Below, piece after piece: positions 30,812 to 38,155 of a DNA stretch of 64,000 bases (its first letter is position 1; each line of letters begins with the position of its first letter). The translations under genes and the position numbers were made by a program. The DNA comes from Fibrobacteraceae bacterium (lineage in GTDB: Bacteria; Fibrobacterota; Fibrobacteria; Fibrobacterales; Fibrobacteraceae), in assembly GCA_017631885.1 (NCBI GenBank), contig JAGBSH010000025.1, positions 62,001-126,000 of the forward strand, given 5' to 3'. The notes under the pieces were generated by a model. The model searched no databases and was not told the DNA's origin. It saw nothing but the letters and a program-made list of their open reading frames with translations.

Positions 30812-32380
30812 ATGGCAAAAAACTCTACAAAAAGCAAGAAAAAAAATATTGAAAAATCGGTTGAAGCGTCTCTTTGGGAATCTGCAAACAAGTTGCGCGG
30901 TAGCGTAGAACCAGCTGAATACAAACATGTTGTACTTTCGCTTATTTTCTTGAAGTTTGCAAGCGATAAGTTTGAAGAACAGCGCGAAAAACTCATTGCC
31001 GCGGGTCGCAAAAAATATGTGGAAATGCCTGAGTTCTACAACAAGGACAATGTCTTTTACCTGGAAGAAACTTCCCGCTGGAGTTTTATAATTGAACACG
31101 CTCGCCAAAGCGATATAGCACTTTTAATTGATACAGCTCTTGCAAATATTGAAAAGAAAAATAAGGCATTGCGCGGAGCACTCCCTGATAACTATTTTTC
31201 AAGATTACAACTTGATACCGCGAAACTGGCGGCGCTCATCAGCGACATCGACGGCATCGACACCATCAAGGACAAAGAGCAAGATGTTGTCGGGCGAGTG
31301 TATGAATATTTTCTAGGAAAATTCGCAATAGCCGAAGGCAAGGGAAAAGGCGAATTCTATACGCCAAAAACAATCGTTGGCTTAATTGCTGAAATGATTG
31401 AACCCTACCGTGGTAAAATTTATGACCCTTGCTGCGGTTCGGGTGGCATGTTCGTGCAGAGCATGAAGTTTATTGAGGCCCATAATGGCAACAAGCGCGA
31501 AGTATCTGTTTATGGTCAGGAATATACAGGTACTACATACAAACTTGCAAAGATGAACCTTGCCATCCGTGGCATCTCTGGTAACTTGGGCGACAAACCT
31601 GCCGATACCTTTGCCGAAGACCAACATAAAGATTTAAAAGCCGATTTTATCATGGCTAATCCGCCGTTCAATCAGAAGTCGTGGCGAGCAGAAAACGAAC
31701 TTCTTGATGACCCGCGCTGGAAAGGCTACACCGTGCCGCCCACAAGCAACGCGAATTATGGTTGGATATTAAACATTCTCTCAAAGCTTTCCGAAAATGG
31801 TGTGGCAGTTTTTTTGCTCAGTAATGGTGCGTTAAGTGGTGAAGGCGACGAACAAAAAATTCGCAAAGAACTTTTGCAGAACGACAAGGTCGAAGCCATT
31901 CTTATTTTGCCTAGAAATATGTTCTATTCCACCGACATCAGCGTGACTCTCTGGATATTGAACAACAATAAAACTGCCCGCGAAGTCAAGATCGGCAGTG
32001 AAATACGCAAGTACAGGAACCGCAAAGGCGAAGTGCTCTTTATGGATTTGCGCCAGATGGGAGAACCCTTTGAAAAGAAGTACACCCAGTTCAGCGCAGA
32101 GGATATTGCAAAAATCAGCGGCACTTACCACAAGTGGCAAACAAAGAAAATCAAGGACGAACCCGAATACTGCGCTACCGCCACCCTGAAAGAAATCGAG
32201 GCGAAAAACTGGTCGCTTGTGCCGAGCAAGTACATCGAATTCAAGAACCGCGACGAACAGGTGAACTTTGACGAAAAAATGCGCGAACTCCAAGCAGAAA
32301 TGCGCACCCTCCTCAAGGCTGAAAAAGAAAGCGAAAAGGAACTCGCCAAGGTGTTTAAGAACCTGGGATTTGAACTATAA
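30812..32380 (+). CDS. hsdM: Type I restriction-modification methyltransferase (M subunit)
   Basis: A 522-residue N6-adenine methyltransferase. The helical HsdM N-terminal domain (~15-160) is followed by the SAM site DPCCGSGGMF (205-214) and the catalytic NPPF (283-286) in IMANPPFNQ. The C-terminal ~90 residues are charged and helical, for contacts with HsdS. With HsdS it methylates the target site; with HsdR it forms the restriction enzyme. It is the first gene of the locus. In most such loci hsdS follows within a few bases, but here two structured repeats and an inserted gene intervene. Its G+C is higher than that of argG upstream, consistent with transfer. Confidence 0.95.
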   Translation: MAKNSTKSKKKNIEKSVEASLWESANKLRGSVEPAEYKHVVLSLIFLKFASDKFEEQREKLIAAGRKKYVEMPEFYNKDNVFYLEETSRWSFIIEHARQSDIALLIDTALANIEKKNKALRGALPDNYFSRLQLDTAKLAALISDIDGIDTIKDKEQDVVGRVYEYFLGKFAIAEGKGKGEFYTPKTIVGLIAEMIEPYRGKIYDPCCGSGGMFVQSMKFIEAHNGNKREVSVYGQEYTGTTYKLAKMNLAIRGISGNLGDKPADTFAEDQHKDLKADFIMANPPFNQKSWRAENELLDDPRWKGYTVPPTSNANYGWILNILSKLSENGVAVFLLSNGALSGEGDEQKIRKELLQNDKVEAILILPRNMFYSTDISVTLWILNNNKTAREVKIGSEIRKYRNRKGEVLFMDLRQMGEPFEKKYTQFSAEDIAKISGTYHKWQTKKIKDEPEYCATATLKEIEAKNWSLVPSKYIEFKNRDEQVNFDEKMRELQAEMRTLLKAEKESEKELAKVFKNLGFEL

Positions 32381-32382
32381 AT

Positions 32383-32469
32383 GTCACACGGATTGGTTCA
32401 CGCCTAACGGCGTTCACGGATGTTGACAAAATTAGAATCAGCGAAGGGGGCTGAGCAAATCTGTGTGAT
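32383..32469 (+). ncRNA. Structured element C, after hsdM
   Basis: The outer stem TCACACGGATT (32384-32394) pairs with AATCTGTGTGA (32458-32468) with one wobble. Inside are GGTTC, then hairpin ACGCC-TAAC-GGCGT (32400-32413), TCACGGA, then CAGCGAA-GGGGGC-TGAGCAAA. It begins right after the hsdM stop, so it may be transcribed as part of the hsdM 3' end. Element D repeats every box with changed stem bases. No Rfam family known to me fits. Confidence 0.6.
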
Positions 32470-32527
32470 AAAGAAAAAGGAGCGTTAACTTGATAAAAGG
32501 AAATGATTTTAGTAACAGTTCAATCTA

Positions 32528-32556
32528 TTGCATAATTTTAGGTGCTGAGATATATT
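32528..32556 (+). promoter_or_regulatory. Promoter for structured element D
   Basis: TTGCAT (32528-32533) and TATATT (32551-32556) are spaced by 17 bases. A start 6-7 bases downstream (~32562) coincides with the first base of element D's outer stem, which suggests D is made as a separate small RNA. Confidence 0.55.
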
Positions 32557-32560
32557 AGAT

Positions 32561-32646
32561 GTCACGCGGATTGGTTCGTACCTAACGGTACTCACGAAAG
32601 TAAAAAAAACAGCGAAGGTCGTTAGACCTGAGCAAACCCGTGCGAC
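32561..32646 (+). ncRNA. Structured element D, probable independent small RNA
   Basis: The outer stem is GTCACGCGGATT / AACCCGTGCGAC (32561-32572 and 32635-32646; one mismatch plus wobbles). It holds GGTTC, hairpin GTACC-TAAC-GGTAC (32578-32591), TCACGAA, then CAGCGAA, an inner hairpin GGTC-GTTA-GACC, and TGAGCAAA. Compared with element C, the first hairpin changed on both arms (ACGCC/GGCGT to GTACC/GGTAC) while the loop TAAC and all boxes stayed, i.e. compensatory change. Its own promoter lies at 32528-32556. No terminator was seen. Confidence 0.65.
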
Positions 32647-32695
32647 TCAATCAAAAAAATACTATTTTCAAACTTAAGGTATCGGATAAAGTGGA

Positions 32696-32737
32696 ATGAT
32701 GAAACGGCTTGGCGACTACATACGGTCCGTAGATGTG
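32696..32737 (+). repeat. Duplicated 5' end of hsdS (left copy)
   Basis: The 42 bases from ATGATGAAACGG to TAGATGTG match the start of hsdS at 34284-34325 with one mismatch. They encode MMKRLGDYIR-PVDV in the intact gene; here the frame soon ends (IFQTD and stop). This is the left footprint of an insertion between hsdM and hsdS. Confidence 0.9.
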
Positions 32738-32865: not shown

Positions 32866-34287
32866 ATGGACTATTCGGAGAAAATTGTTGGCCGTCAAGA
32901 AGAGCAAAAGACCTTGCAAAAATGCTTTGAAAGTCCGAAAGCGGAGTTTGTCGCAATCTATGGTCGCAGGCGAATAGGGAAGACGTTCCTTGTCAAGCAA
33001 TTTTTCAAGGAAGAATTCGATTTCTATACAACAGGGGTGTATCAGGTAAGCAAGGCTGAACAACTGAGAAACTGGAAAAAGCAACTTCAAAAGTTTAGCG
33101 GGCAAAGTACAAACATTCCCAAGAACTGGTTTGAGGCCTTCGACCAGCTGGAAAATTACCTTCGGACATTAAAGAAAAAAAGGATTGTCGTATTTATTGA
33201 CGAACTGCCGTGGCTTGACACGTCGAAATCCAATTTCCTCAGGGCCCTGGAAATGTTTTGGAACAGCTGGGGAGCCGATTGCCAAAGGTTGAAACTGGTG
33301 GTTTGCGGCAGCGCTACGACCTGGATGGTGAACAAGCTGTTGGGCGACAAGGGCGGACTGCACAATAGGGTGACTAGGCCTATCTATCTTGCCCCCTTTT
33401 CGTTGCTTGAAACCCGTAAATACCTTGCAAAAGAAAACTTTGACTGGTCTGATTCGGAAATCGTCGAAACCTACATGTGCCTGGGTGGAACACCCTACTA
33501 TCTATCGTTGCTAGATTCGTCGCTTAGCTTGAGGCAAAATATAGATAAGCTTTTTTTCAAGAGAAACGCCGCACTCAGGACAGAATACGACTTTCTGTTT
33601 CGGTCGCTCTTTAACGAATCGACAATTTACAGGAAGGTTGTAGAACTGTTGTCCGCAAAGCTTGTGGGCCTCACAAGGAACGCTATTATTTCGGGACTTG
33701 GTGCGGCAGATAACGGAAAATTGAGCGAAGTCCTGGAAAATCTGGAAAAGTGCGACTTTATCCGCCATTACCAGTCTTTTGGCAAAAAAAGGAATGAGGC
33801 TCTGTTTCAGTTGACCGACATGTTTACGTTGTTCTTTTTGCGGTTCGTAAAGGACTACAAAGGCATGAATGAAAATGCGTGGAGCAATTTGTCTGACAGC
33901 AAACGCAATGCGTGGCAGGGGTATGCGTTCGAACAAGTTTGCATACACCACGTCGCTCAAGTGAAAGCGGCTTTGGGTATATCGGGAATCGAAAGCGACG
34001 TCTGTTCGTGGTCAAAGAAAAACGGCAAGAAAGGTGCCCAGATAGACTTGATTATAGACCGGAGCGACAAGGTGATAGACCTGTGCGAAATAAAGTATTG
34101 TGACAGACCTTTCGAGATAAAGAAAGACTATGCCGAGTGGTTGAAGGAACGCCGTGACATTTTCAGGGATGATGTGAAAACTAACAAGACGCTGCACTTG
34201 ACAATGATTGCGCCTTTTGGAGTGGCGAATGGAAAATACTCGTCTTTAATACAAAGTATTGTTAAAGCGGAGGATCTGTTTCGATGA
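32866..34287 (+). CDS. ATPase with C-terminal PD-(D/E)XK-like domain (DUF234-type)
   Basis: A 473-residue protein; TGAGGA precedes ATG 32866. The N-terminal P-loop ATPase resembles the archaeal-type ATPase_2 family: Walker A IYGRRRIGKT (31-40), Walker B VVFIDEL (~108-114) and a sensor-like KLVVCGSAT. A winged-helix segment lies in the middle. The C-terminal part has GAQIDLIIDR (Asp394), then LCEIKY (Glu408-x-Lys410), the D...ExK pattern of nuclease-fold domains, as in DUF234 proteins. It overlaps hsdS by four bases (ATGA) and is bracketed by the duplicated hsdS 5' end, so it is an insertion into the R-M locus. A defence or mobility role is plausible; activity is unproven. Confidence 0.75.
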   Translation: MDYSEKIVGRQEEQKTLQKCFESPKAEFVAIYGRRRIGKTFLVKQFFKEEFDFYTTGVYQVSKAEQLRNWKKQLQKFSGQSTNIPKNWFEAFDQLENYLRTLKKKRIVVFIDELPWLDTSKSNFLRALEMFWNSWGADCQRLKLVVCGSATTWMVNKLLGDKGGLHNRVTRPIYLAPFSLLETRKYLAKENFDWSDSEIVETYMCLGGTPYYLSLLDSSLSLRQNIDKLFFKRNAALRTEYDFLFRSLFNESTIYRKVVELLSAKLVGLTRNAIISGLGAADNGKLSEVLENLEKCDFIRHYQSFGKKRNEALFQLTDMFTLFFLRFVKDYKGMNENAWSNLSDSKRNAWQGYAFEQVCIHHVAQVKAALGISGIESDVCSWSKKNGKKGAQIDLIIDRSDKVIDLCEIKYCDRPFEIKKDYAEWLKERRDIFRDDVKTNKTLHLTMIAPFGVANGKYSSLIQSIVKAEDLFR

Positions 34288-35459
34288 TGAAACGGCTTGG
34301 CGACTACATACGGCCCGTAGATGTGCGGAACAGGGACCTGAAAGTCGAACGACTGCTTGGGATAAGCGTGACGAAAGAGTTTATCCCGTCTATTGCTAAT
34401 ACGATTGGCACGGATATGTCATCGTATAAAATTGTGTATCCGAATCAATTTGTTTATATCGCAGATACGTCACGACGTGGAGATAAAATTGCAATTGCCT
34501 ATCTAAAAGAAAATGAAAAACCGGCTTTGGTTTCTGCAATTTATACCGTTTTTGAAGTCGTTGATACGAACGCCTTGGATCCCGAATATCTAATGATGTG
34601 GTTTCGTCGCCCGGAATTTGACCGCTACGCTAGATTCCATTCTCACGGCAGCGCCCGCGAAGTCTTTGACTGGGAAGAAATGTGCGAAGTCCAGGTCCCC
34701 GTCCCCGCAATTGAAAAACAGCGTGAAATCGTCGCCGAATACAACACCCTCGCCACCCGCATCGAAACCAACAAGAAACTCATCGCCACCCTCGAACAAA
34801 CCGCCGGAGCCCTCTACCGCCACACCTTCGTCGACAACATCGACCCCAACAATCTGCCGCAGGGATGGCGGATGGGAACGCTGGGGGAAATAATTGATGT
34901 CAACCCCAAATTGTCATTAAAAAAAGATGAAGAATGTTCCTTTGTTGAAATGGATTCTCTTCCTATTGAAGGTTATGGCATTTCTGAAATTACAAAACGT
35001 GATTTTTCAGGTGGTGCCAAATTCCAAAATGGCGATGTATTATTTGCACGAATAACTCCTTGCATGGAAAATGGTAAAGCTGGCGTTGTTGATGGATTGA
35101 ATGATAATGAAGTTGGTGCTGGGTCAACGGAATTTATTGTTCTTCGTGGTAAGAATATCTCTTTGATGGGACTCTTAGCGACTACTGTTCGCAATGAAGA
35201 ATTTAGAACCTATGCTAAAGCTCATCAAACAGGTTCTGATGGTCGTCAGCGAGTTGAAGCGTCTTGCATTTCTGCTTATGAACATCCTATACCCTCTGAA
35301 AAGCAACTCGCTGAAATTGAAAAAGATTTTTCTAGGATAATTAAGGTCTGTTTGTTTAAAAGCGAAGAAAACCAAACCCTAACCCAAATGCAAACCCTTC
35401 TCCTCTCCAAAATGGGAGACGGGAATATACAAATTTGTATATTTAAAAAAAAGAGGTAA
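34284..35459 (+). CDS. hsdS: Type I restriction specificity subunit
   Basis: A 391-residue protein with two target-recognition domains. The first is ~1-150, closing with the conserved helix EKQREIVAEYNTLATRI. The second begins after LPQGWRMGTLGEIIDVNPKL (~195) and ends with the matching EKQLAEIEKDF helix. HsdS sets the DNA sequence for both methylation and cutting. Base composition switches sharply: the central conserved segment (~34620-34870) is GC-rich, while both recognition domains are AT-rich, as expected for domain shuffling. ATG 34284 or the next Met could be the start. Its first 42 bases are duplicated at 32696. Confidence 0.92.
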   Translation: MMKRLGDYIRPVDVRNRDLKVERLLGISVTKEFIPSIANTIGTDMSSYKIVYPNQFVYIADTSRRGDKIAIAYLKENEKPALVSAIYTVFEVVDTNALDPEYLMMWFRRPEFDRYARFHSHGSAREVFDWEEMCEVQVPVPAIEKQREIVAEYNTLATRIETNKKLIATLEQTAGALYRHTFVDNIDPNNLPQGWRMGTLGEIIDVNPKLSLKKDEECSFVEMDSLPIEGYGISEITKRDFSGGAKFQNGDVLFARITPCMENGKAGVVDGLNDNEVGAGSTEFIVLRGKNISLMGLLATTVRNEEFRTYAKAHQTGSDGRQRVEASCISAYEHPIPSEKQLAEIEKDFSRIIKVCLFKSEENQTLTQMQTLLLSKMGDGNIQICIFKKKR

Positions 35460-35463
35460 AAAA

Positions 35464-36663
35464 ATGGTGACTGAAAAAATTATTATCGAAAATTTCTCAA
35501 TAATTAAGAAAATGGAACTTGATATCAGTAAATTTATTTTGCTGATAGGACCTCAAGCATCAGGGAAAAGTCTTGTTGCTAAAATAGACTATTTTATGAA
35601 TGAAAGTATTTCAGCATTGTTCCTAAAAAATCTTTCAAAAGCTGCATCTTTGCTCGAATTTGAAAAAGATGTGCAACGGGAATTTTCGAATTTGTTTCCT
35701 TCTTACTTATGGGTTGGTTGCAAATTCTCCATCTCTCGAAAAAAAGGCAATGATTTCTATTTTACAATTAGTCGTTCTAATCGCAAGACTGTAAACCTTT
35801 TAAAGGTGAAATATTCAGAAAGTTTTAAGAATGCCTATGAAACTATTTTAAATGTGATTAAAAGAGAAAAGAAAAATTCTAGTTTGTTTTTTTGGTTTGA
35901 TCGGGATATTTTCAAAAAAAATAATATGGAAACCATTAATTGGATGACAAATGGTTTTTTCATACCAGCAGGTCGTTCATTTTTCTCTGCTATTCATGAT
36001 AATCTTTTTACCCTTTTATCATCAAGTTTTGACGAAGATAATTCTTCATCATCAACATCATTGGCAAATATTGATCCTTTTATGAAGATATTTGGGCGAA
36101 ATTATGAGAGAATAAAAGGAAGACCTTTTGTCAATAGGCTTTTGAATACAAACACTGTTTCAGAAATATTGAAGGGACAATACATCCGTGAAAAAGGAAA
36201 AGATTTCATCGAACGTCAAGGCGAACGAATTCGAGTAGAAAATTCATCATCGGGTCAGCAAGAAGTATTGCCGATGTTGATGACAATATTGTCCTATGCA
36301 AATCAATCAGTTCCTGTACCATATTCTAGCAAATGTTTTTTTATTGAAGAATTAGAAGCTCACATATTCCCTGAATCGCAAAAACAAATTGTTGATTTAG
36401 TTGCGTCTCTGTTTAATAATAATTATGGCAAAGTAGGGTTTGTTTTAACAACACACAGCCCTTATGTTGCAACTGCTATAAATAATGCTATTATGAAATC
36501 GGGGAAAAAAGGGATAAAATATGCTAAATCAGATTTTTCAGCTTATGAAATTAATAACGGAAAAATAAAAAATATCATTGAATCAGAAACAGGTTTGATT
36601 GATGCCAATATCATTGACTCAGTCTCCTCTATTATAGCAGATGAGTTTGACAAATTGTTGTAA
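35464..36663 (+). CDS. ABC/SMC-like ATPase of the AAA_15/AAA_21 (OLD-like) type
   Basis: A 399-residue protein, four bases after hsdS. The N-terminus IIIENFSIIKKMELD is the usual beta-strand opening; Walker A is GPQASGKS (29-36); the signature-like SSSGQQEVLPML is near 260; Walker B is CFFIEELEAHIFPES (~291-305); the H-loop is VLTTHSPYVATAI. Such ATPases power many two-gene phage-defence systems in which the neighbour is a nuclease. Here the next gene carries a D...ExK pattern but is frameshifted. It lacks its own TOPRIM domain, so it is not a full OLD nuclease. The system identity is undetermined. Confidence 0.75.
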   Translation: MVTEKIIIENFSIIKKMELDISKFILLIGPQASGKSLVAKIDYFMNESISALFLKNLSKAASLLEFEKDVQREFSNLFPSYLWVGCKFSISRKKGNDFYFTISRSNRKTVNLLKVKYSESFKNAYETILNVIKREKKNSSLFFWFDRDIFKKNNMETINWMTNGFFIPAGRSFFSAIHDNLFTLLSSSFDEDNSSSSTSLANIDPFMKIFGRNYERIKGRPFVNRLLNTNTVSEILKGQYIREKGKDFIERQGERIRVENSSSGQQEVLPMLMTILSYANQSVPVPYSSKCFFIEELEAHIFPESQKQIVDLVASLFNNNYGKVGFVLTTHSPYVATAINNAIMKSGKKGIKYAKSDFSAYEINNGKIKNIIESETGLIDANIIDSVSSIIADEFDKLL

Positions 36664-36673
36664 GAGGTTTTCA

Positions 36674-37131
36674 ATGATACATTTCAATTACATCAAAAGT
36701 AGAGATAAAATAAAAAATTTCATTGAAAATAAAAGAACTTTTTCTTTACAAAATCCCAAAGAAAGATGTTTTGGCTATATCAAAGGAGAATCTACCGCAG
36801 AGACTTCTGGTCAAAAAAGATGCGATTATATTATTTGTTTTGATTTCGGCAATAATGATAGGAATCCGCTGGATCCTACCAATTATTTGTTTGTTGAATT
36901 GAAGGGATCTGACAACGAGAAAGCTTTGGAACAAATCGTATCAACAATACATTATTTTTTGCAAATTGGCAATATCAGGGGAAAAATGTAGAATGTTTTA
37001 TTATTTCTGGCTCTTGCCCTACAGTAAAAACAAAAGATCAAATCTTAAAGGCGAAATTTCCATATGGAAAATCTCCCTACAATTATACATTAACATTTAA
37101 GACAAGATTGGCGAAATATGTAATTAAATGA
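36674..37131 (+). pseudogene. PD-(D/E)XK-like nuclease gene with a frameshift
   Basis: ATG 36674 follows AAGAGGT. The first ~106 residues contain CDYIICFDFG (Asp51/Asp57), then YLFVELKG (Glu75-x-Lys77), a nuclease-fold active-site pattern. The frame then stops at TAG 36989-36991. One base more in the GGGGAAAAA run near 36977-36985 would continue the protein as GKNVECFIISGSCPTV to TRLAKYVIK and TGA 37131, a sensible ending. So either the gene is inactivated by a homopolymer indel, or the indel is a sequencing error or a phase switch. It pairs with the ATPase just upstream. Confidence 0.65.
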
Positions 37132-37156
37132 TTTTTTTAGAGGGATGGATAAATTT

Positions 37157-38155
37157 ATGTCAAAAATGTTCATGGTCCGTTCGGGAGAAGGTAATTATCT
37201 CTTTGAACAAAATCGCGAAAAGAGTATAATAACAATTGGATGGAATAAACTAGGTGACTTGTCAAACGTCAAAAGTTTTGATGAAATCAAAAAGATGATG
37301 TTGAGGTGTTATCCAGATAGTAAGCCTCAAACATCCGCTATGAATGCGGGACAGGTGAATCGCTTTGTGAATCTTGTTCATCCTTCAGACTATATTATTA
37401 CTTATTGTTCGGAACAGCGAATTTATCTAGTTGGTAAAGACAAAGGTGAGTATAAATACGATGAAAATTTGACAGATTATTTTCATTCCAGGAAAGTTGA
37501 ATGGATTGATTCTGTCAAACGAGACGATTTGACCATCAAGACCAAAAATGCATTGGGATCAATCGCTACTGTTTTTGAAATATCTGAAGACGCTAAAAAA
37601 GAAGTCCTATCTGTACTCGAACATAAAACTCCGTTGATATCAAAAAAAGGAGAAACCGTTATTGAAACGGATAATTCGACGGATGAATTAAAAGGTGATT
37701 TAGAAGAGAAATCGCATGAATTCATAAAAGATAAAGTCATGGACTTGTCGTGGGATGAAATGCAGGAACTGATGGCGGCAATCCTTCGTGCGATGAATTT
37801 CAAGACAAAAGTCAGTAAAAAAGGTAGCGATCGCGGCAAAGATATTATCGCATCTCCAGATGGATTGGGTTTAGAGAACCCACGAATATTTGTCGAAGTC
37901 AAGCATCGTGATGGAGCTATGGGTGCTCCTGAAATTCGAAGCTTCATTGGAGGTCTTCGCGAAGGTTGCAAAGGACTCTATGTTTCTACAGGGGGCTTTA
38001 CGAAAGAAGCCCGTTACGAAGCCGAACGTTCTGTTATTCCTTTGACCTTGATTGATTCAGATGACCTTGTTGATTTGATTGTGGAATATTATGACAACTT
38101 CGATCCAGAAGGCCGTAGTTTGATTTCCCTTAAGAAAATATACTGGCCGATGTAA
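37157..38155 (+). CDS. Mrr-type restriction endonuclease
   Basis: Start ATG 37157 is preferred because AGAGGG lies 12 bases upstream; ATG 37145 is too close to it. The ~332-residue protein has an N-terminal ~110-residue domain (MFMVRSGEGNYLFEQN ... DYIITYCSEQRIYLVG) resembling EVE/PUA-like modules that read modified bases. The C-terminal Mrr catalytic domain has GSDRGKDII (catalytic Asp ~229) and FVEVKHRD (Glu ~247-x-Lys ~249), then EIRSFIGGLREGCKGLYVSTGGFT, the usual Mrr block. It probably cuts foreign, perhaps modified, DNA. It lies in the R-M island and is likely an additional defence gene. Confidence 0.85.
   Translation: MSKMFMVRSGEGNYLFEQNREKSIITIGWNKLGDLSNVKSFDEIKKMMLRCYPDSKPQTSAMNAGQVNRFVNLVHPSDYIITYCSEQRIYLVGKDKGEYKYDENLTDYFHSRKVEWIDSVKRDDLTIKTKNALGSIATVFEISEDAKKEVLSVLEHKTPLISKKGETVIETDNSTDELKGDLEEKSHEFIKDKVMDLSWDEMQELMAAILRAMNFKTKVSKKGSDRGKDIIASPDGLGLENPRIFVEVKHRDGAMGAPEIRSFIGGLREGCKGLYVSTGGFTKEARYEAERSVIPLTLIDSDDLVDLIVEYYDNFDPEGRSLISLKKIYWPM

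Follow-up and report, generated by a model that had tools for sequence, protein, structure and literature searches.

Intervening sequences (IVSs) of 23S rRNA that carry an S23p/four-helix-bundle ORF are known from Coxiella and Leptospira (PMC4990558). They are among the closest known analogues of the elements described here, two copies of which (C and D) lie between the hsdM and hsdS genes of a type I restriction-modification (R-M) locus. Like the IVSs, these elements are short, have one small ORF between complementary, stem-forming ends in their long form, occur in decaying forms and are spread across taxa. The ORF-in-stem layout is strikingly similar in the two systems (PMC4990558). In contrast to the IVSs, the elements lie between protein genes and not inside 23S rRNA, the protein encoded by the long form is a PD-(D/E)XK nuclease and not a four-helix bundle (PF05635), and the ends contain two covarying hairpins with fixed loops.

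Several families of dispersed repeats share other properties with C and D. The miniature inverted-repeat transposable elements (MITEs) Correia/NEMIS and ERIC (PMC10969869) are also about 80–130 bp long, non-autonomous, flanked by terminal inverted repeats and present in many AT-rich intergenic copies. The C/D family differs from them in having no visible target duplication, no parent IS, a gene-bearing relative that encodes a GxxExxY protein, and internal hairpins that vary in sequence while pairing is kept. Rickettsia palindromic elements (PMC10969869) are likewise palindromic, and one C/D-type copy lies in frame in a gene; however, this is a single case in a mostly intergenic family, which has another sequence and length and is linked to a nuclease gene. 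REP/BIME elements with RAYT share the inverted hairpin pairs, the conserved foot and the internal mismatch, but in the C/D family the stem sequence is not conserved and there is no association with Y1 genes. By sequence, the gene in the long form belongs fully to the GxxExxY family (TIGR04256, PF13366); what is new is its residence in inverted-repeat mobile elements.

Two related elements between hsdM and hsdS

The window, the whole 64-kb stretch of DNA that was analyzed, belongs to contig C1 of a 2.37-Mb genome. Here hsdM is followed by C, placed directly 3' of its stop codon, an 89 bp spacer, D, a 42-bp duplicate of the hsdS 5' end, an AAA ATPase gene and the intact hsdS:

30812–32380, + strand: hsdM (PF02384, E 5e-99; HsdM_N), the host gene upstream of C, outside the element
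32382–32470, + strand: element C, gene-less, left half intact, right hairpin mostly deleted; covariance model (CM) R1, 63.3 bits
32383–32394, + strand: 5' arm of the C outer stem, GTCACACGGATT, partner of 32458–32469; structure counted on relatives
32396–32417, + strand: C left hairpin, GT-TC-ACGCC-TAAC-GGCGT-TC-AC; helix 2 of the covariation count
32441–32456, + strand: remnant of the C right hairpin, stem and loop shortened by a deletion, from alignment with D and relatives
32458–32469, + strand: 3' arm of the C outer stem, AATCTGTGTGAT, read from sequence and counted on relatives
32560–32647, + strand: element D, gene-less, both hairpins intact; CM R1, 101.2 bits
32574–32595, + strand: D left hairpin, GT-TC-GTACC-TAAC-GGTAC-TC-AC; helix 2, both-side changes at 6 of 7 pairs
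32612–32633, + strand: D right hairpin, GC-GA-AGGTC-GTTA-GACCT-GA-GC, the left motif inverted; helix 3, both-side changes at 5 of 7 pairs
32696–32737, + strand: duplicate of the hsdS 5' end, 41 of 42 bases identical to 34284–34325, beside the AAA gene between D and hsdS
32866–34287: AAA ATPase gene between the 42-bp copies (ATPase_2; PADLOC PDC-S27, E 2e-194)
34284–35459, + strand: hsdS (PF01420, E 5e-9; PADLOC Specificity_I)

The PDC-S27-like ATPase gene looks inserted between hsdM and hsdS. The region 3' of hsdS (35464–38155) is a dense defence island, with an AriA-like AAA ATPase (PADLOC AriA, 8.7e-25), a 116-aa ORF that matches nothing in Pfam and an Mrr_cat restriction endonuclease (PF04471, 1.6e-24). 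The same genome has a second R-M locus (L003, C3:45346), with a decayed left end of this element between its Fic-like gene and hsdS. In a genome of the same genus (L006 1–110, G001:C54), the position of C holds a right end, AAACCCGTGTGAT, after unrelated sequence; a different insert may occupy the site there, on a contig that stops before the left side.

The preliminary description had reported two structured elements sharing a series of boxes in the same order, and both lie where described, with all of those boxes in that order. Their architecture is symmetric: an outer inverted repeat, TGTCACACGGATT/AATCCGTGTGACA, surrounds two inward hairpins, the right one being the left motif inverted, which makes each an inverted-repeat element whose outer stem holds both hairpins. 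The hairpin loops are fixed in the C/D family as C-TAAC-G on the left and C-GTTA-G on the right. RNA folding gives z = −4.5 for C and z = −3.3 for D, with none of 200 shuffles as good for either, whereas with DNA parameters the fold of D does not exceed that of shuffles (z −0.5). Both elements are structured and related, but C has lost most of its right hairpin: its right part reads CAGCGAAGG--GGGCTGAGC where aligned relatives have CAGCGAAGGTCGTTAGACCTGAGC. Because of this loss, C by itself folds partly into another structure. The shared left-half pattern has exactly two matches in the 64 kb window and none in shuffles. In agreement with the earlier reading, which recognized no family in the layout, C and D have no match among the Rfam covariance models at the gathering threshold or at E ≤ 1.

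Covariation and mobility of the family

Exact and correctly spaced copies of the left-half pattern occur in Fibrobacter, other Fibrobacteraceae, Treponema and other Spirochaetales MAGs. One match lies in a MAG labelled Eubacteriales (L016); since its sequence is nearly identical to the window locus, it may be a misplaced contig. Covariance model R1 detects further homologues with covariation: 18 of 111 Fibrobacteraceae genomes have copies, as do 35 of the 98 Treponema-group (G152 group) genomes. The maximum is 28 matches in one genome, equivalent to up to about 14 or more elements because both strands of one element often match. At loci of the Treponema group and of Fibrobacteraceae (L029, L003), dispersed repeats of the form CGTCATTGCGAGG...GCAATCC adjoin the element.

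The compensatory difference first noticed between C and D (ACGCC/GGCGT versus GTACC/GGTAC) extends to 35 relatives. Drawn from 71 copies, they are distinct members of the window class that are equal in length outside the linker, and they align without gaps. Pairing is kept in 95.6% of cells, compared to 79.5 ± 0.8% after shuffling and 24–38% when slid. Changes on both sides occur at 14 of 26 pairs and in 165 cells (48.9 ± 7.5 in shuffles), and several pair positions show all four Watson-Crick types. The foot pairs of the hairpins also covary (GTGA..GAAC versus GCGA..GAGC), and the C-TAAC-G loop and the TC/TC internal loop are nearly invariant. Among the 490 cells of the two hairpins, 472 are Watson-Crick, 3 are G-T and 4 are A-C, which makes G-T pairs no more frequent than A-C mismatches. 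If folding took place in one RNA strand only, G-U pairs would be favored; the hairpin pairing therefore seems to be maintained at the DNA level or on both strands, as far as such small counts (3 versus 4 cells) can be read. Stem changes without G-U preference also give no support to the ribozyme-like element that had been among the initial suggestions.

Insertion is polymorphic. The hsdM-hsdS spacer of G050 is colinear with that of the window and its flanks align, but D is absent. In G109, an 80-bp copy lies inside an ORF; the insert is open and, with one further base added, its 80 bp leave the frame intact, and homologues of the gene in G050, G053 and G139 do not have the 80-bp insert. Nested or adjoining copies are found at three loci (L097, L098, L070). 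The C/D family is thus a dispersed mobile element. Its members have the MITE properties of short length, terminal inverted repeats, several copies and no transposase gene; the fixed-length target-site duplication of MITEs is absent over 68 insertions, with no offset or length clearly above shuffles.

A long form with a GxxExxY nuclease gene

At two loci (L026, L013), the left and right hairpins are separated by a 127-codon gene, and the same arrangement recurs generally in Fibrobacter and the Treponema group; the ends around this gene are those of the gene-less copies. Its product matches PF13366, a PD-(D/E)XK nuclease family (E 2e-40, 138 bits, cut-off 22), and TIGR04256 GxxExxY (143–152 bits, cut-off 35). 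Residues E28, Y31, D68, E78 and K80 are invariant. An AlphaFold model from a three-sequence alignment reached pLDDT 75 (51 in a single-sequence run), and a fold search with this model returned SSO0001, a Cas4 nuclease, and lambda exonuclease as nearest structures (best E 7e-4), suggesting a resemblance at the level of the predicted fold only. We also considered a Holliday-junction resolvase, for which the sequence hits to T7 endonuclease I are sub-threshold (E 0.3–0.6); the fold search favors Cas4/lambda exonuclease.

No other genes were found between the hairpin ends. The four-helix-bundle IVS gene was rejected as an alternative cargo: of 30 PF05635 loci in the same genomes none is bracketed by these ends, and one has an element less than 1 kb away. 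Carriage by phage was rejected too: 2.9 million viral contigs contain no match to the class-1 pattern, and relaxing the pattern yielded 30 chance matches, all without hairpins. Shorter derivatives at L097 and L098 keep the ribosome site and start codon and have lost the gene. The locus of G158 differs from the otherwise colinear window in having, at the position of C, the C-terminal part of a GxxExxY gene and a right end; D follows. Read from this sequence, C would most simply be a gene-less form of the GxxExxY element.

The link between nuclease and end type is clade-specific. Hairpin ends are present at 34 of 48 GxxExxY loci (33 recognized by the pattern, L214 by eye), and in a tree of the 48 proteins these 34 fall on one side of a branch with support 84. 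End type changes once on this tree, compared to a mean of 12.3 changes when shuffled. GxxExxY relatives of 52–55% identity, located between his genes, have inverted ends of the CACAGATT type, and more distant relatives have inverted arrays of CAGGATT or CGGAATT type. In 32 of 47 GxxExxY loci, the inverted repeats in the gene's own flanks exceed the maximum (12) of 235 shuffled controls. These sequences suggest a general rule in which GxxExxY genes are bracketed by inverted repeats whose sequence is specific to the clade. In the literature searched, we found no report of such bracketing and only passing mentions of the family.

Individual loci add to the variety of ends. Upstream of hisB (L222–L226), several Treponema-group genomes have GxxExxY genes of another clade within inverted repeats of the CACAGATT type, and their position in the his operon is roughly the same from genome to genome. 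At L230–L234 and L298, PF05635 four-helix-bundle genes and a GxxExxY gene, the latter on a contig of the viral collection, lie within inverted arrays of short units (TAGGTTCTAGGT/ACCTAAAACCTA; CGGAATAAACGGAAT/ATTCCGTTAATTCCG) that recall the heptamer repeats of the Coxiella IVS. At L216, a GxxExxY gene has a long tandem array on either side, one of TTACACGGATA and the other of AATCCGTGTGA; such a locus might be a transition between ends made of arrays and ends made of hairpins.

The long form also has a characteristic setting. The upstream gene is co-directional at 36 of 38 GxxExxY loci, by crude ORF calling and with loci that are not all independent, and it often ends about 40–110 bp before the GxxExxY gene, with the left hairpin in between. 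HsdM or HsdS lies within 1.5 kb of at least 17 of 40 GxxExxY loci but only 3 of 60 gene-less loci (Fisher P 6e-6), and so defence loci are a favored or tolerant home of the long form and not of the whole family. Across 98 genomes, gene-less copies do not track resident GxxExxY genes of the hairpin clade (6 genomes shared, hypergeometric P 0.22), and G152 has many copies of the element with no GxxExxY gene at all.

How the elements may move

We consider it probable that C and D are gene-less, MITE-like derivatives of the GxxExxY element that are moved via folded DNA ends. The complete form would consist of one GxxExxY PD-(D/E)XK nuclease gene, two inward hairpins and a terminal inverted repeat. 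Its folded ends, with the outer stem, the TC/TC or GA/GA internal loop and the C-TAAC-G loop, would be recognized as extruded or single-stranded DNA and cut or processed by the nuclease, from the same or another copy. By this route the element, or a copy of it, would enter cuts in AT-rich spacer DNA with no duplication of the target, and gene-less derivatives, which retain the ends, could be mobilized in trans. Insertion in sense behind a stop codon would keep the operon readable, and the left hairpin would lead straight into the GGAG ribosome site of the nuclease gene. Our inferences here are that the nuclease acts on the ends and drives movement, and that what folds is DNA; the absence of a G-U preference in the hairpins fits folding as DNA or on both strands. 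The lack of co-occurrence between gene-less copies and GxxExxY genes and the weak DNA-parameter fold of D count against it. Of the three options initially offered, a DNA hairpin used in recombination is the nearest to the evidence. The original observation is confirmed and its interpretation partly supported.

A more far-reaching version is less probable: GxxExxY nucleases could define a new class of mobile DNA, whose sole protein would be a small Cas4/lambda-exonuclease-like PD-(D/E)XK nuclease recognizing the shape and loop of the ends instead of the stem sequence, with C and D as minimal, trans-mobilized derivatives.

The main rival is a role at the RNA level, as in rRNA intervening sequences or Correia/NEMIS repeats: the insert would be tolerated owing to folding and processing of its transcript (by RNase III, for instance), the hairpins would be under RNA selection and the element would tune the downstream gene. 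There are precedents in the Coxiella IVS, where an ORF with a terminal stem is cut by RNase III (PMC4990558), and in Correia-element transcripts, which RNase III also cuts (PMC10969869). Folding as RNA far above shuffles and above DNA folding, the in-frame copy in G109 and the sense orientation behind the upstream gene are consistent with such a role, and the sense bias could reflect selection on RNA. On the other hand, G-U is not preferred over A-C mismatches, unlike what is expected of a one-strand RNA, and gene-less copies occur at many unrelated sites. We regard this explanation as rather unlikely. The option named first in the earlier reading was a small RNA working with the type I R-M locus; the position of C and D, and the GxxExxY loci beside HsdM/HsdS genes, agree with such a locus-specific regulator. 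Yet 57 of the 60 gene-less loci fetched have no HsdM/HsdS match nearby, and the 17-spaced promoter assigned to D fails a simple consensus scan and lies in flanking sequence that other copies do not share; the upstream flanks are unconserved. It is the least credible of the explanations considered.

Transposition by a known type of transposase is also unlikely. Were C and D non-autonomous MITEs of an unseen DDE or tyrosine/serine transposon, with GxxExxY a passenger captured once, the terminal inverted repeats, the many gene-less copies and the copies in genomes without GxxExxY would be accounted for. Neither a fixed-length target duplication nor another gene between the ends was found, however, and variable stems with kept pairing are unexpected for ends recognized as duplex. 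Other GxxExxY clades also sit within inverted repeats of other sequence, which argues that the link is general. It is still harder to credit a BIME/REP-like element whose hairpins are recognized as single-stranded DNA by a Y1 (HUH, RAYT) transposase. The two inverted hairpins, conserved foot, fixed internal loop and lack of target duplication over 68 insertions would suit one, but although Y1_Tnp genes occur in 25 of the 98 genomes, the element is near none of the 30 Y1 loci read, and high-copy genomes such as G152, G254, G255 and G231 have no Y1 genes. Integron attC sites were rejected: although the CTAAC/GTTAG of some copies look like R boxes, RYYYAAC/GTTRRRY does not hold in L012, L013 and others, and in the alignment every box forms the loop of a separate hairpin.

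C and D are minimal representatives of a mobile family that is linked to GxxExxY and has no recognized transposase, a family common to rumen Fibrobacter and Treponema whose longer members carry the GxxExxY gene between the same two hairpins. The interest of this finding is greater for the nuclease family than for the R-M locus. GxxExxY proteins are curated in Pfam and NCBIfam and have almost no literature; their residence in inverted repeats, the tracking of protein phylogeny by end structure and the gene-less derivatives in two phyla lead to a testable role, as the candidate motor or companion of a transposase-free mobile element. The family also explains unannotated structured repeats in rumen Fibrobacter and Treponema that could otherwise be mistaken for new small RNAs, and brings them close to an old problem, the movement of rRNA intervening sequences.
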